Part shown: positions 5,168 through 38,664 of the stretch, piece after piece
How positions within the stretch are numbered: position 1 is the stretch's first letter
Layout of the letters: every line of letters begins with the position of its first letter
NCBI GenBank assembly: GCA_036493475.1
Contig: DASXPS010000122.1
Location: 1-38,664, forward strand
Length of the DNA stretch: 38,664 nucleotides
Origin: Sporichthyaceae bacterium
Lineage (GTDB): Bacteria; Actinomycetota; Actinomycetes; Sporichthyales; Sporichthyaceae
Direction: 5' to 3'
Notes under the pieces: model-generated
The model's input: the letters and a program-made list of their open reading frames with translations, nothing else
The model's database searches: none
Told to the model about the DNA's origin: nothing
Translations under genes and position numbers: made by a program

Positions 5168-5233
5168 CCGTCCGCTCACGGCGTGTGGGGCCATCAGCGG
5201 CTCGGGATAGCCCGACACGCCAGTAGCGGACGG
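5168..5233. repeat. Large imperfect inverted repeat between methyltransferase and MFS gene
   Basis: The left arm 5168-5190 (CCGTCCGCT..GGCGTGTGGGG) and right arm 5211-5233 are complementary at 19 of 23 positions around a 20-base loop. It fills the gap between the MFS stop and the methyltransferase start, both on the minus strand, so it could end MFS transcription. There is no T-run. Its outer bases CGTCCGCT are shared with the palindrome at 13171-13216, hinting at a related repeat family. Confidence 0.6.
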
Positions 5234-10959: not shown

Positions 10960-11882
10960 GGCAGCGAGCGCACGCCAATCTCGCCACGCTTGACCGCGAG
11001 GAAGATGTGGTAGCCACACAGCCCTTGCTTGAGCGCGAAGTACTGATTGCGGGCAGCTATGGCATTGCCGTGAGCGGACCTGCTGCGTAGGCGGAGCGCG
11101 TGGAGCAGGTAACCCAGAAAGCGCAGATGGGCCAAGCGATACAACCGCCTCGACGACGGCACCACGTTTTCGGTCGCATCTTGTTCTCGAGCAACGTCGA
11201 AGCCGGCGGCCTGAATATCGCGCCGGAACTGCTCCACGCTGTCGATGGATGGCACCGCCCAACCCTCCAGCCACGATCGCATGAGGGCGGCTTCATCCTG
11301 CGACAGCTCGTTCTTGATCGCGAAGCCGTCCGCAACGATGAGCCGACCGCCCGGCCGCAAAATGCGGTACGCCTCGCGGAGAAAGTCCAGTTTCTTCTCG
11401 GCGTGACAGACGCTCTCGATCGCCCACACCACGTCGAATGAGGCGTCCGGCAAACCTGTCGCCACGAAGTCCCGTTGCTCGAAGTGAGCCAGCTCGGAGA
11501 CCGTCGCCCGGGCCGCGTTCCGCTTGGCGGTCCGGACCTGAGACTCGCTCAGCGTGATTCCGAGAACGCGACAGCCGATATTTCGGCCGAGATAGATCGC
11601 GCTGCCGCCAACGCCGCAACCGGCGTCCAGGACACTGTCCGACCCGCGGATGCCCGCCCACTCGGCCAGGACCTGATTTTCTCGTTGCAGTGCTGCCGCA
11701 AGCGTCTTCGTCGATGAGTCCCAGTAGCCGAAGTGCATGGCCATTTGACTGCCCAGGCGCCAGACGAGCCGATAGTCCAGCTCGGCCGCGGCGTAATACC
11801 TGACGATCGACCGCGCATCGGCCGTCATCGACGTGGGCAGACGCGGCACTGTCTCCAACGCCGCGGGATCCGTGTCCGGCAC
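10956..11882 (-). CDS. SAM-dependent small-molecule methyltransferase
   Basis: The 308-residue protein has a HFGYWD segment before the SAM domain, then [16 protein letters not shown] (motif I), [18 protein letters not shown] and [39 protein letters not shown]. This layout matches the tocopherol/sterol/polyketide-type C- and O-methyltransferases; I cannot assign the substrate. GTG 11882 has GGGAGG just upstream on the minus strand. The gene is inserted between clpX and valS. Three sampled 60-base lines in it (11041-11220) average about 61% G+C, below most neighbours, which suggests transfer. It is divergent from a second, unrelated-looking methyltransferase, with a 210-base shared upstream region. 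Confidence 0.87.
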
Positions 11883-12092: not shown

Positions 12093-13145
12093 ATGGACGA
12101 GGCGAAGCTCGAACAGTTCATGGGCGCGGTGGTCGGGCACATGACCGGCGCCGCGGTGTGCTTCCAGATCTGGCTCGGTGAACGGACCGGGCTGTGGCGG
12201 GCCATGGCGGGCGCCGGCCCGCTGACCGCAGCGCAACTGGCCGCGAAGGCGGGGACCCAGCCGCGGCTGACCGAGGAGTGGCTGAAGAGCAACGCCGCGT
12301 CGGGGTTGGTCGCGCACGACGTTGCCGCGGGAACGTTTTCGCTGTCCGAGGAGGCCGCGATGGCGCTGGCGATCGACACCTCGCCGGTGTTCGTTGCCCG
12401 GGGCATGGACGTCATCGGGTCGCTCTACACGGACATCGACAAGATCGCGGGCGCGGTGTGCGGTGATGGCAAGCTGGCCTGGGGCGATCACCATCCCCAC
12501 CTGTTCTCCGGCACCGAGTGGTTCTTCCGCACCGGCTACCAGGCGTTCCTGACCACCACATGGATCCCGGCGATGGACGGGGTCGCGGACCTGCTCAGCG
12601 CCGGCGGGACCGTCGCGGACATCGGCTGTGGGCACGGCGCCTCGGCGGTGGTGATTGCGCAGGGCTTCCCCGCCGCCCGTGTGCACGGCTTCGACTTCCA
12701 CGAGCCCTCGGTGCAGGTCGCGGGCAAGCGCGCCGCGGAGGCCGGGGTGGCGGACCGCACCACGTTCAGCGTCGCGACCGCGAAGAGCTACCCCGGCAGC
12801 TACGACCTGATCTGCTTCTTCGACTGCCTGCACGACATGGGCGACCCGGTCGGCATCGCCGCCTACGCCCGTGAACACCTCACCGATGGCGGCTCGGTGC
12901 TGCTGGTGGAACCGTTCGCGCTCGACGGCCCGGCGAACATCACCGACAACCCGATGGCCCCGATCCTTTACATGGCCTCGGCCAGCGTGTGCAGCCCGAA
13001 CTCGCTGTCCCAGGAGGTGGGTGCGGCCATCGGCGCCCAGGCCGGGCCGGGCAAGCTGCGCGAGGTGCTGGCCGAGGCCGGCTTCTCCCAGTTCGAGGTC
13101 GTCGCCTCCTCGCCGATGAACCTGGTCATCCAGGCCCGCGTCTGA
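12093..13145 (+). CDS. Methyltransferase with N-terminal winged-helix-like domain
   Basis: In this 350-residue protein the N-terminal ~100 residues are helical and winged-helix-like (LTAAQLAAKAGTQPRLTEEWLKSNAASGLV), as in dimerisation domains of O-methyltransferases. The SAM domain follows: VADIGCGHGASAVVIAQGFP, VHGFDFHEPSV, YDLICFFDCLHDM and LTDGGSVLLVEPFA. The family is widespread in actinobacteria without a known substrate. ATG 12093 is preceded by GGGAGGT. The palindromic repeat at 13171-13216 follows the stop by 25 bases and may end its transcript before valS. Confidence 0.85.
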   Translation: MDEAKLEQFMGAVVGHMTGAAVCFQIWLGERTGLWRAMAGAGPLTAAQLAAKAGTQPRLTEEWLKSNAASGLVAHDVAAGTFSLSEEAAMALAIDTSPVFVARGMDVIGSLYTDIDKIAGAVCGDGKLAWGDHHPHLFSGTEWFFRTGYQAFLTTTWIPAMDGVADLLSAGGTVADIGCGHGASAVVIAQGFPAARVHGFDFHEPSVQVAGKRAAEAGVADRTTFSVATAKSYPGSYDLICFFDCLHDMGDPVGIAAYAREHLTDGGSVLLVEPFALDGPANITDNPMAPILYMASASVCSPNSLSQEVGAAIGAQAGPGKLREVLAEAGFSQFEVVASSPMNLVIQARV

Positions 13146-13170
13146 CGTTCCACCCGCTACGCCACGACCC

Positions 13171-13216
13171 GGCGTCCGCTCAACCGTGAGGTATAGCTCA
13201 CGGTTGGACGGACGCC
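13171..13216. repeat. Palindromic dispersed repeat (copy 1, complete)
   Basis: The left arm GGCGTCCGCTCAACCGTGAG (13171-13190) and the right arm 13197-13216 pair at 18 of 20 positions plus one G-T wobble, around the 6-base loop GTATAG. The same 20-base arm recurs with one change at 38642-38661, so this is a repeat and not only a local terminator. It sits between a methyltransferase gene and valS. It could also act as a terminator, although no T-run follows. Confidence 0.8.
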
Positions 13217-13264
13217 CGGGCTGCGTGGGGGGAAACGGATTCGAAGGCGTGTCATCGCGCTCCG

Positions 13265-13277
13265 TAGACTCGGGCCG
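13265..13277 (+). promoter_or_regulatory. Leaderless-type -10 box for valS
   Basis: TAGACT (13265-13270) is separated by only six bases (CGGGCC) from the valS GTG at 13277, and no ribosome binding site is present. That spacing puts the transcription start on the start codon, a common leaderless arrangement in actinobacteria. The -35 region is weak (TTCGAA at 13240-13245, 19-base spacer). Confidence 0.5.
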
Positions 13278-15895
13278 TGAGTGACGCGCCCGCCAGTGAT
13301 CTGCCCACCCGTTACGCCCCGGCCGAGGTCGAGGCGAGCCTGTACGACCGGTGGGTGGCCGCGCGGTACTTCGAGGTGGACCCGAAGTCCGACAAGCCGC
13401 CGTACGCCATCGTCATCCCACCACCGAACGTCACCGGGTCGCTGCACCTCGGGCACGCCTTCGAGCACACGCTGATCGACGCGCTGGTGCGCCGCCGGCG
13501 CATGCAGGGCTACGAGGCGCTGTGGCTGCCCGGCATGGACCATGCGGGCATCGCCACGCAGAACGTCGTCGAGCGCGAACTCGGCAAGGAGGGCATCTCC
13601 CGCCACGACCTGGGCCGCGAGGCGTTCGTGGACAAGGTCTGGGAATGGAAGGCCGAGTCCGGCGGCAAGATCCTGGGCCAGATGCGCCGACTCGGCGACG
13701 GCGTCGCCTGGGAGCGGGAGCGTTTCACCATGGACGCCGGTCTGTCCCGCGCCGTGCTCACCATGTTCAAGCGGCTGTACTCCGACGGCCTGATCTACCG
13801 GGCCAACCGGATCACCAACTGGTGCCCACGCTGCCACACGGCACTGTCCGACATCGAGGTCGAGCACACCGAGGACGCCGGTGAACTCGTCTCCATCCGC
13901 TACGGCGACGGGGATAACGCGATCGTGGTCGCCACCACCCGGGCTGAGACCATGCTCGGCGACACCGCGGTCGCGGTGCATCCCGAGGACGAGCGGTACC
14001 GGCACCTGGTCGGCACCACCGTCGAGCTGCCGCTGACCGGGCGTCAGATCCCGATCGTCGCTGACGAGCACGTCGACCCGGCGTTCGGCACCGGCGCGGT
14101 CAAGGTGACCCCGGCGCACGACCCGAACGACTTCGAGATCGGCAAGCGGCACAACCTGCCGGAGCTGACGATCATGGACGACCACGCGGCGATCACCGCG
14201 CACGGTCCGTTCCTGGGCATGGACCGCTACGAGGCCCGCCCCGCGGTCGTCGCCGCGCTGCGCGCGCAGGGCCGCATCGTGGCGGAGAAGCGGCCGTACC
14301 TGCACGCGGTCGGGCACTGCTCGCGGTGCAAGACCGTGGTCGAGCCGCGGCTGTCGCTGCAGTGGTACGTCAACGTCGCGCCACTGGCCAAGGCCGCCGG
14401 CGACGCGGTGCGCGACGGGCGGGTCACTGTCCACCCCAAGGAGATGGAACCGCGCTGGTTCGCCTGGGTGGACAACATGCACGACTGGTGCATCTCCCGG
14501 CAGCTGTGGTGGGGCCACCGCATCCCGGTCTGGTATGGCCCCGACGGCGAATTACGCTGCGTCGGCCCGGACGAGGAGCCGCCCGGCGAGGGCTGGACGC
14601 AGGACCCGGACGTGCTCGACACCTGGTTCTCCAGTGGTCTGTGGCCGTTCTCCACGTTGGGCTGGCCGGAGCGCACCGCCGAACTCGAGCGGTTCTATCC
14701 GACCTCGGTGCTGGTCACCGGCTACGACATCCTGTTCTTCTGGGTCGCCCGGATGATGATGTTCGGCCTGTACGCCATGGATGCTGACGGGCCGTCAGGT
14801 TCGATGCCATTCCGGACCATCGCGCTGCATGGCATGGTGCGCGACCAGTTCGGCAAGAAGATGAGCAAGTCGTTCGGCAACGCCATCGACCCGCTGGACT
14901 GGATGGACGCCTACGGTTCCGACGCGCTGCGCTTCACGCTGGCCCGTGGCGCCAATCCCGGCACCGACGTGCCGATCGGTGAGGACTGGGTCGCGGGCAG
15001 CCGAAACTTCTGCAACAAGCTGTGGAACGCCACCCGCTTCGCGTTGATGAACGGCGCCAAGATCGCCGACCTGCCGCCGCGCGACCAGCTGTCCGCCGCG
15101 GACCGGTGGATGCTCTCCCGATTGCACGCCACCCTCGCCGAGGTCGACGCGTTCTACGAGGACTACGAGTTCGCCAAGGCCACCGAGGCGCTCTACCACT
15201 TGGTTTGGGACGAGTTCTGCGACTGGTACCTGGAGTTGGCCAAGGCCCCGCTGGCCGCCGGGGGAGCTGCCGCCGAAACCACCAGAATCGTGCTCGGCCA
15301 CGTGCTCGATGTGGTGCTGCGCCTGCTGCACCCCGTCGTGCCGTTCGTCACCGAGACGCTGTGGACCACGCTGACCGGGCAGGAGTCGGTGGTCATCGCT
15401 GCCTGGCCGCAGGTGCGCGCCGACCGCGCCGACGCCGACGCCGAGGCGCAGATCGCCGCGGTGCAGAACCTGGTTACCGAGATCCGCCGGTTCCGCGCCG
15501 ACCAAGGTGTGCCGCCGAGCAAGAAGGTCTCCGCCCGGATTGCCACCGACGGTTCGGTCGCGGGGCCGGCCGAGTACGCGGACCAGGTCGCTGCGCTCAC
15601 CCGGCTGACGCTCCAGGACGCCCTCACCGCCGGCGCCACGCTGACCGTGCCCGGTGCCCGGGTGGAGCTGGACCTGTCCGGCGCGGTCGACGTCGAGGCC
15701 GAGCGGGCCCGGTTGGCCAAGGACCTGGCCGCGGCGCGATCGGAGATCGAGGCGGCCAACACCAAGCTGGCCAATCAGGATTTCCTGGCCAAGGCACCCG
15801 AGCAGGTGGTGGCGAAGATCCGCGCCCGACTGGCCGCCGGCGAGGCCGACGTCGCCCGGATCACCGCCGCCCTTGACGCCCTGGGGTCCGCGTGA
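13277..15895 (+). CDS. valS: Valine--tRNA ligase
   Basis: This class I synthetase has 872 residues. The HIGH motif appears as HLGH at 57-60 after PPPNVTGSL, and KMSKS is at 528-532 in [10 protein letters not shown]. The CP1 editing domain includes [24 protein letters not shown]. The tRNA-binding anticodon domain (about 600-760) and a C-terminal coiled coil ([28 protein letters not shown]) complete a full-length ValS. It charges tRNA-Val and hydrolyses mischarged threonine. GTG 13277 seems to be a leaderless start. I see no T-box leader. folC follows after 52 bases. Confidence 0.97.
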
Positions 15896-36976: not shown

Positions 36977-37234
36977 ATGGCACACAAGAAGGGCGCGTCC
37001 TCCACGCGCAACGGGCGCGACTCCAACGCCCAGCGCCTCGGCGTCAAGCGCTTCGGGGGCCAGCAGGTGAACGCCGGCGAGATCATCGTCCGCCAGCGCG
37101 GCACCCACTTCCATCCGGGTGACGGCGTCGGTCGTGGCGGTGACGACACGTTGTTCGCCCTCGTCGCCGGCGCTGTGCAGTTCGGTACCCGACGCGGCCG
37201 TCGCGTCATCAACATCGTCGCAGCCGCGGAGTAA
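36977..37234 (+). CDS. rpmA: 50S ribosomal protein L27
   Basis: The 85-residue protein starts [29 protein letters not shown] and continues with [29 protein letters not shown], a full-length L27. It begins directly at the mature N-terminus, which reaches the peptidyl-transferase centre, with no cleavable extension of the Firmicutes type. ATG 36977 is preceded by GAGG nine bases upstream. It is followed by obgE after 19 bases. Confidence 0.97.
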
Positions 37235-37253
37235 CCCTCCGCGCTTTCCTTAT

Positions 37254-38633
37254 ATGACCACCTTCGTCGACCGGGTCGTCCTGCACGCCGCCGCCGGCGA
37301 CGGCGGTGACGGCTGCGCGTCCATTCACCGGGAGAAGTTCAAGCCGCTGGGCGGGCCTGACGGCGGCAACGGGGGGCGCGGCGGGGACGTGGTGCTGGTT
37401 GTCGAGCCCGGCACCACCACGCTGCTCGAGTACCACCACGGTCCGCACCGTCGGGCCGCGTCCGGCAAGTCCGGTCAGGGCAACAACCGCAGCGGCGCCG
37501 ACGGCGGGGACGTCATCCTCCCGGTGCCCAACGGCACCTTGGTGAAGTCCATGGACGGGCGGATCATCACCGATCTGGTCGGGTCGGACATCCGTTACGT
37601 GTTGGCCCATGGTGGCCGCGGTGGCCTCGGCAACGCCGCGCTGGCCTCCCCGCGGCGCAAGGCGCCCGGCTTCGCCCTGCTCGGCGAGCCCGGCGAAACC
37701 GCGGACGTGGTGCTGGAGCTCAAGACGGTGGCCGACGTGGCGCTGGTGGGCTACCCGAGCGCGGGCAAGTCCTCGCTGATCGCGGCGATCTCGGCGGCCC
37801 GCCCCAAGATCGCCGATTACCCGTTCCCCACCCTGGTGCCGAACCTCGGCGTGGTGCAGGCCGGTGACGTCCGGTTCACCGTCGCCGACGTGCCGGGCCT
37901 GATCCCCGGTGCGAGCGAGGGCAGGGGCCTGGGCCTGGAGTTCCTGCGGCACGTCGAACGTTGCTCGGTGCTGGTGCACGTGCTGGACTGCGCCACGCTG
38001 GAGCCGAACCGGGATCCCGTCTCCGATCTGGACGTGATCGAGGCCGAGCTGGCCGCGTACGGGGGGTTGGTCGACCGTCCGCGCCTGGTGGCGCTGAACA
38101 AGGTCGATGTCCCCGAGGGCCGGGAGCTGGCCGACCTGGTCACCGCGGACCTGGAGGCCCGCGGGCTGCGGGTGCTCCCGGTGAGCGCGGTCAGCCACGA
38201 GGGGCTGCGAGCGCTCGGCTTCGCCATGGCGCAATTGGTCGCCGAGGCGCGCGCCGCCGCGCCGGCCGCCGATCCGGGACGACAGCTACTGCGACCGATC
38301 CCGGTGGATGAGACCGGCTTCTCGGTCACCCGCGAGGAGATCGACGGCGAACCCGCCTTCGTGGTGCGCGGGGAGAAGCCGCGCCGCTGGGTGTTGCAAA
38401 CCGACTTCAACAACCCGGAGGCGGTGGGCTTCCTGGCCGATCGGCTGGCCCGCCTCGGCGTGGAGGACCGCCTCTACGAGCTCGGCGCGCGCGAGGGCGA
38501 CCCCGTGGTCATCGGTGGGCGCACCGGGCACGACCGCGACGCCGTGGTCTTCGACTGGGAACCTTCCATCCGGGCCGGCGCGGAGCACCTGCACGGCCGG
38601 CGTGGCACCGACCTGCGGCTGGACGGCCGATGA
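37254..38633 (+). CDS. obgE: GTPase ObgE/CgtA
   Basis: The 459-residue protein has three domains. The glycine-rich Obg fold (1-158) contains [16 protein letters not shown] and [16 protein letters not shown]. The G domain has G1 GYPSAGKSS at 166-174, G3 [16 protein letters not shown] and G4 NKVD at 282-285. The C-terminal OCT domain follows (about 370-450, ending with [13 protein letters not shown]). Obg acts in 50S assembly and in stringent-type and developmental control. ATG 37254 has no visible ribosome binding site, so expression may depend on coupling to rpmA. A copy of the palindromic repeat starts eight bases after the stop. Confidence 0.97.
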
Positions 38634-38641
38634 ACACCTCA

Positions 38642-38664
38642 GGCGTCCGCCCAACCGTGAGCTA
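38642..38664. repeat. Palindromic dispersed repeat (copy 2, cut by window end)
   Basis: GGCGTCCGCCCAACCGTGAG at 38642-38661 matches the left arm of the repeat at 13171-13190 in 19 of 20 bases, and the complement of its right arm also in 19 of 20. The next bases are CTA, unlike the GTATAG loop of copy 1. The second arm would lie beyond the window. It begins eight bases after the obgE stop. Confidence 0.7.

Follow-up and report, generated by a model that had tools for sequence, protein, structure and literature searches.

The stretch of Sporichthyaceae DNA analysed here carries an intergenic hairpin ahead of valS, one arm of which recurs beyond obgE at the very end of the contig. From the letters alone, the preliminary description took the two sites for members of a REP- or MITE-like family placed at gene ends and pointed to a REP-associated Y1 transposase (TnpA-REP) as the enzyme to look for. 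The locus raises two questions: whether the hairpin belongs to a dispersed and mobile family, and, if so, which enzyme moves it.

A dispersed palindrome at gene ends

The window, meaning the whole stretch of 38,664 nucleotides, is an entire contig (C122) of a host genome (G000) of 4.27 Mb in 217 contigs. Searching the window for the arm with up to three mismatches returned 13171-13190 (+), 13197-13216 (-) and 38642-38661 (+), compared with 0.03 matches expected from shuffled sequence, which confirmed both the position of the hairpin and the second arm copy (Table 1). The upstream methyltransferase gene has its stop codon 25 nt ahead of copy 1; copy 2 begins 8 nt past the obgE stop codon. The second copy had been credited with a different loop; the contig end leaves it three bases of the usual CTATAG, and the centre that varies is that of copy 1, where GTATAG is one substitution away. 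Likewise, of the two arm differences reported for copy 1, one does yield the T-G wobble and the other yields an A-C mismatch. An Rfam search of the window found two tRNAs and nothing else. The window also contains an intergenic palindrome of a different dispersed family, with one relative in the fifth of the host genome that was sampled; it is the same kind of element as the window hairpins.

Table 1. Features of the window; coordinates count from its first nucleotide.
Feature	Coordinates	Strand	Remarks
Intergenic palindrome of a different dispersed family, CTCAYGGCGTGTGGGG...	5168..5233		Relative at L272:13839, score 38
Rv2258c-type winged-helix + SAM methyltransferase gene	12093..13145	+	3' end just ahead of copy 1
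Copy 1, complete 46-bp palindromic element, subfamily A	13171..13216		Pairing reaches ~13168-13219
valS	13277..15895	+	ORF, name from the preliminary description; 3' of copy 1; start conserved in G001
obgE	37119..38633	+	GTP1_OBG and DUF1967 domains; 5' of copy 2
Copy 2, left arm and first three centre bases, subfamily A	38642..38664		Rest truncated by the contig end

Across the host genome, the arm GGCGTCCGCCCAACCGTGAG gave 29 matches with at most three mismatches, compared with 0 for a reversed control. Alignment of the copies defined the element unit as a 46-bp palindrome, GGCGTCCG-N7-GTGAGCTATAGCTCAC-N7-CGGACGCC, often longer. Its core GTGAGCTATAGCTCAC has exactly 10 occurrences in the host genome and none in 39 relatives. 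The outer arms alone (GCGTCCG...CGGACGC) were found at 41 places in the host (4 for the control) and at 46 and 34 places in two genomes of the same family (5 and 6 for the controls), with matches that were mostly exactly 44 nt long and fell into several subfamilies: A, the window type; B, GCGTCCGAAGAAG.GTG...CAC; and others. A covariance model yielded 121 matches, equivalent to ~60 places, in the host and 10 matches, equivalent to 5 places, in the congener G001. Among 247 sampled Actinomycetes genomes its matches were almost confined to the host family and one f19 genus, which we infer to be Kribbella; a pattern scan of named genomes found matches in Sporichthya and Kribbella alone, where the symmetry reaches TTGCGTCC...GGACGCAA. 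Since contigs end within element copies (window 38642-38664; G000 C20:2-21), the assembly breaks at these repeats and the copy counts are lower bounds. Far from being limited to two copies or to a shuffled-level frequency, the palindrome clearly forms a genome-wide family, and the original observation was right and understates the case.

Placement was counted on gene calls made by a purpose-made codon-based caller, by which 50 of 60 copies are intergenic. With expected gene-orientation counts scaled by intergenic length, 21 of the 50 lie between convergent genes (4.9 expected), 24 between codirectional genes (28.0) and 5 between divergent genes (17.1; chi-square P 5e-14). Copies lie a median of 12 nt from a flanking stop codon, with 89% no more than 30 nt away, bearing out the proposed placement at gene ends. 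The remaining ten copies lie inside called ORFs, some of which are read-through at gene ends; two cases of in-frame insertion are convincing. The first is an aldehyde dehydrogenase (L130:1496-2923; G000 C187:12101), in which an in-frame element of ~16 extra residues occupies a loop that is longer than in the best PDB homolog. The second is a fused NapA-like/flavodoxin protein (L121:3-2891), which has an insertion in the linker joining its NapA-like and flavodoxin domains and carries two in-frame copies in linkers altogether (G000 C169:730 and C169:1-38). Elements also lie within the hisB-hisH, purQ-purL and carB-pyrD gene pairs, named from domains and context, in the host only when compared with G001.

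The convergent excess and the closeness to stop codons are what one would expect if the palindromes served the host as transcription terminators or 3'-end stabilisers of mRNA that had become repetitive by copying, their link to the nuclease described below being incidental. However, none of 66 hairpins was followed by a T-rich tail (>=6 T in 12 nt), copies sit within the three gene pairs and within reading frames, and codirectional copies in transcript orientation showed no excess of G-U over A-C mismatches (9 and 14, respectively). Nor would this explanation account for the bracketing of one protein family by lineage-specific sequences, and we consider it unlikely.

Over 32 sequences, structure covariation was 0.259, compared with 0.115 when shuffled, and this excess is mostly a difference between subfamilies. 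When whole arms were shuffled within a subfamily, B showed no excess pairing and A showed it at columns 8-10 only, the inner arm positions of A pairing no better than shuffled arms. The conserved pairing suggested earlier therefore holds between subfamilies and at columns 8-10, and fails for those inner positions and for any RNA wobble bias. Because there is little excess pairing within subfamilies and G-U mismatches are about as frequent as A-C, the symmetry seems to reside at the DNA level and not to reflect selection on an RNA hairpin. A function at the RNA level was rejected for want of a wobble bias and a T tail.

A predicted nuclease encoded between element copies

The host genome gave 0 matches to PF01797, the Y1 transposase family, for which control genomes were positive as expected; the partner that did emerge is a gene for a Vsr/DUF559-like nuclease. 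The REP- or MITE-like label was apt as regards dispersal, palindromic form and placement, and wrong as regards the Y1 partner. The GTAG or GT(A/G)G head of REPs is missing at the hairpin foot in the aligned flanks of subfamilies A and B. The same two results count against classical REPs moved by a RAYT (Y1/HUH) transposase from another genome. Such REPs would match the elements in size, gene-end placement and bracketing of an enzyme gene, but this explanation is already disfavoured and we give it next to no credence.

Two paralogous nuclease genes in the host, 58% identical and each encoding ~320 aa, are bracketed by element copies. One (G000:C49:11959-12888) lies between subfamily A copies at 11806 and 12906 and is the likely partner of the window's subfamily; the other (C50:4265-5257) is bracketed by subfamily B. 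Their product is predicted to be an AbiEi-type winged-helix protein with a Vsr/DUF559-like PD-(D/E)XK nuclease domain. The host proteins score 17.4 and 20.4 bits, just below the Pfam DUF559 cut-off of 20.6 bits, which is exceeded by one G002 and one Kribbella homolog. Homologs contain an AbiEi_4 winged helix, which scores above the Pfam cut-off in those from Kribbella; among 18 homologs E211, D242 and E253 are invariant and H259 is nearly so; and the nuclease matches an endonuclease-like protein in the PDB (3hrl, E 5e-7). Elements occupy both flanks of the nuclease gene in G000 (two of two close homologs), G002, G003 and G004. Homologs are present in 161 of 198 sampled Actinomycetes genomes, and most of those in Kribbella are accompanied by a pair of palindromes of their own, 40-75 bp long and different in sequence.

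The resemblance of the N-terminal domain to AbiEi_4 raises the alternative that the palindromes serve as operators for an AbiEi-like regulator that controls its own gene, the dispersed copies being either its regulon or decoys. Operators should lie at 5' ends, whereas the copies flank the nuclease gene on both sides and elsewhere lie near stop codons, rarely between divergent genes. We find this alternative very improbable.

Nuclease lineages and their own palindromes

The association between nuclease and palindrome is strong. In the first set, 22 of the 25 nuclease loci had matched flanking palindromes (score of at least 18), a bracket score that none of 100 control genes attained. In a class survey of other Actinomycetes genomes, whose statistics exclude the contig-edge double counts L183, L190, L197 and L203, 19 of 21 nuclease loci reached 18, each with its own palindrome, and two loci were without palindromes. 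Cross-pairing the left palindrome of one locus with the right palindrome of another reached 18 in 4.5% of cases for the first set and 9.5% for the class survey. For extra paralogs the count was 8/13 with the contig-edge double counts L207 and L213 included, the clean count being 6/11.

An unselected test took in 1,352 genes on 1.64 Mb of sequence drawn from three genomes; its host share came from copy-carrying contigs. The top three bracket scores (40, 38 and 38) all belonged to nuclease homologs and the next gene scored 19, so that at a score of at least 22 there were 3 of 4 nucleases compared with 0 of 1,348 other genes (Fisher P 1e-8); one of the four homologs had no palindromes.

Three further results concern the specificity of the association. 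First, the cognate palindromes of seven host nucleases recur as solo copies across the fifth of the host genome that was sampled, in small numbers (1-10), with few or none in G001 and G002; six palindromes of other families searched as controls gave 0. The G001 C88 family shows the opposite distribution, with 8 copies in G001 and 0 in the host. Second, the nuclease-cognate Kribbella CATGATCAT...ATGATCATG palindromes of near-constant length number 27-118 per genome (G101, G182, G209 and G226; control 0), and the host has none. Third, palindrome similarity and protein similarity were correlated over 43 loci (Mantel Pearson 0.70, 0 of 2000 permutations): below 45% protein identity the palindromes are almost always unrelated, and above 60% half of the pairs match.

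These patterns bear on another explanation, in which unrelated machinery spreads the palindromes and the nuclease is a selfish or defence passenger homing into sites that have two of them. The enzyme is a nuclease and not a known transposase, and homing endonucleases of Vsr-like type exist. Against this, each nuclease lineage has its own palindrome family, the two co-diverge, and no Y1 transposase was found; we regard a passenger role as quite unlikely. Carriage by phages or plasmids was also considered and rejected: viral contigs contained 0 pattern matches, one unannotated phage record showed 41% protein identity, and there was no plasmid match.

Empty sites in a congener

Fifteen gene 3' ends were matched in G001 and 0 of the 15 has this element, both window sites included; the two weakest matches (~49% identity) may be non-orthologs. 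At the counterpart of the copy 1 site, the upstream gene ends ~20 nt ahead of the valS start, and at that of copy 2, obgE runs directly into the next gene. A palindrome of a different family is present at 2 of the 15 sites, and the one after serC matches the palindrome bracketing a G001 nuclease (L209). None of the 15 comparisons revealed a regular target-site duplication; one site has ATGA on both sides, which may merely preserve a stop and a start codon.

Several observations on other loci can be added. The neighbourhood of the fumarase gene is a hot spot (L113, L146, L152): in G000 and G001 the gap between PhoH and fumarase contains elements that belong to different families. Next to fumarase in G000 lies the B-type nuclease unit, a fragment of which is found beside fumarase in G004, a Sporichthya MAG. 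At L143-L146 of G001 there are a few elements of the ACGTCAGCG...CGCTGACGT subfamily without a close nuclease of their own; this is the subfamily that brackets nucleases L156 and L160 of the sister genus.

A proposed nuclease-associated mobile repeat

The best explanation, to which we assign a probability of roughly two in three, is a mobile repeat system of REP/RAYT-like character whose partner is an unrelated nuclease, the window hairpins being solo, non-autonomous copies. We infer that the nuclease moves the repeat. The autonomous form would be the nuclease gene between two complete copies of the same palindrome. The winged helix would bind the palindrome, the nuclease would cut at or beside it in duplex, cruciform or single-strand hairpin form, and a palindrome copy would enter a new site by insertion or repair. 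Positions at gene ends might be favoured through target choice or because insertions elsewhere are harmful, and a mild effect on transcript 3' ends is likely as a secondary consequence. To our knowledge, PD-(D/E)XK enzymes do not transpose DNA by themselves, and a second factor from the host or the element may therefore be needed alongside the nuclease. Neither movement, an excision product nor a consistent target duplication was seen. Also counting against this explanation are the host nuclease scores just under the DUF559 cut-off, the nuclease loci that lack palindromes and the G001 elements of a related family with no close nuclease.

We give even odds to the broader proposition that widespread actinobacterial mobile palindromes are mobilised by a single winged-helix + PD-(D/E)XK nuclease, without a DDE, HUH, tyrosine or serine recombinase. 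Our searches of the open-access literature found no description of nuclease-associated palindromic repeats, and the results suggest a previously undescribed kind of small jumping repeat. We know of one dedicated enzyme family for REP-like repeats, the Y1 RAYTs, and of several large repeat classes without any. If the proposed system is real, a second, unrelated enzyme would be paired one to one with a palindrome and would be the likely partner of a large unannotated repeat class, many AbiEi/DUF559 'hypothetical' genes would gain a function, and the mobility of bare palindromes would become directly testable.

Comparison with known systems

The closest known system is REP/RAYT. In these 'REPtrons', short extragenic palindromes near gene ends number from tens to hundreds, two repeats bracket the enzyme gene, and enzyme families stand in one-to-one correspondence with palindrome families (PMC2817692, PMC3733652). 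The elements described here are likewise multi-copy extragenic palindromes near gene ends, with a lineage-matched enzyme gene between two copies. They differ in that the enzyme is a predicted winged-helix + PD-(D/E)XK-type nuclease rather than a Y1/HUH transposase, the palindromes measure ~46-75 bp and the hosts are Actinomycetes. Given an unrelated enzyme and the lack of a GTAG head, we do not file the elements as REPs. The CGTC-tagged REPs, including Neisseria dRS3 and Rickettsia RPE-4/RPE-6, are also dispersed palindromes, some of them intragenic, for which no dedicated transposase is known (PMC3733652); however, they belong to other phyla, have other sequences and are shorter than the elements here. 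MITEs are similarly small, symmetrical and non-autonomous and are presumably moved in trans, whereas here no linked DDE transposase and no consistent target-site duplication were seen. Finally, Vsr-like/EDxHD homing endonucleases of the I-Bth0305I type share the nuclease fold class and the logic of a selfish element, but in place of an intron, an intein or a fractured gene, the nuclease genes described here are bracketed by complete palindromes whose solo copies are dispersed.
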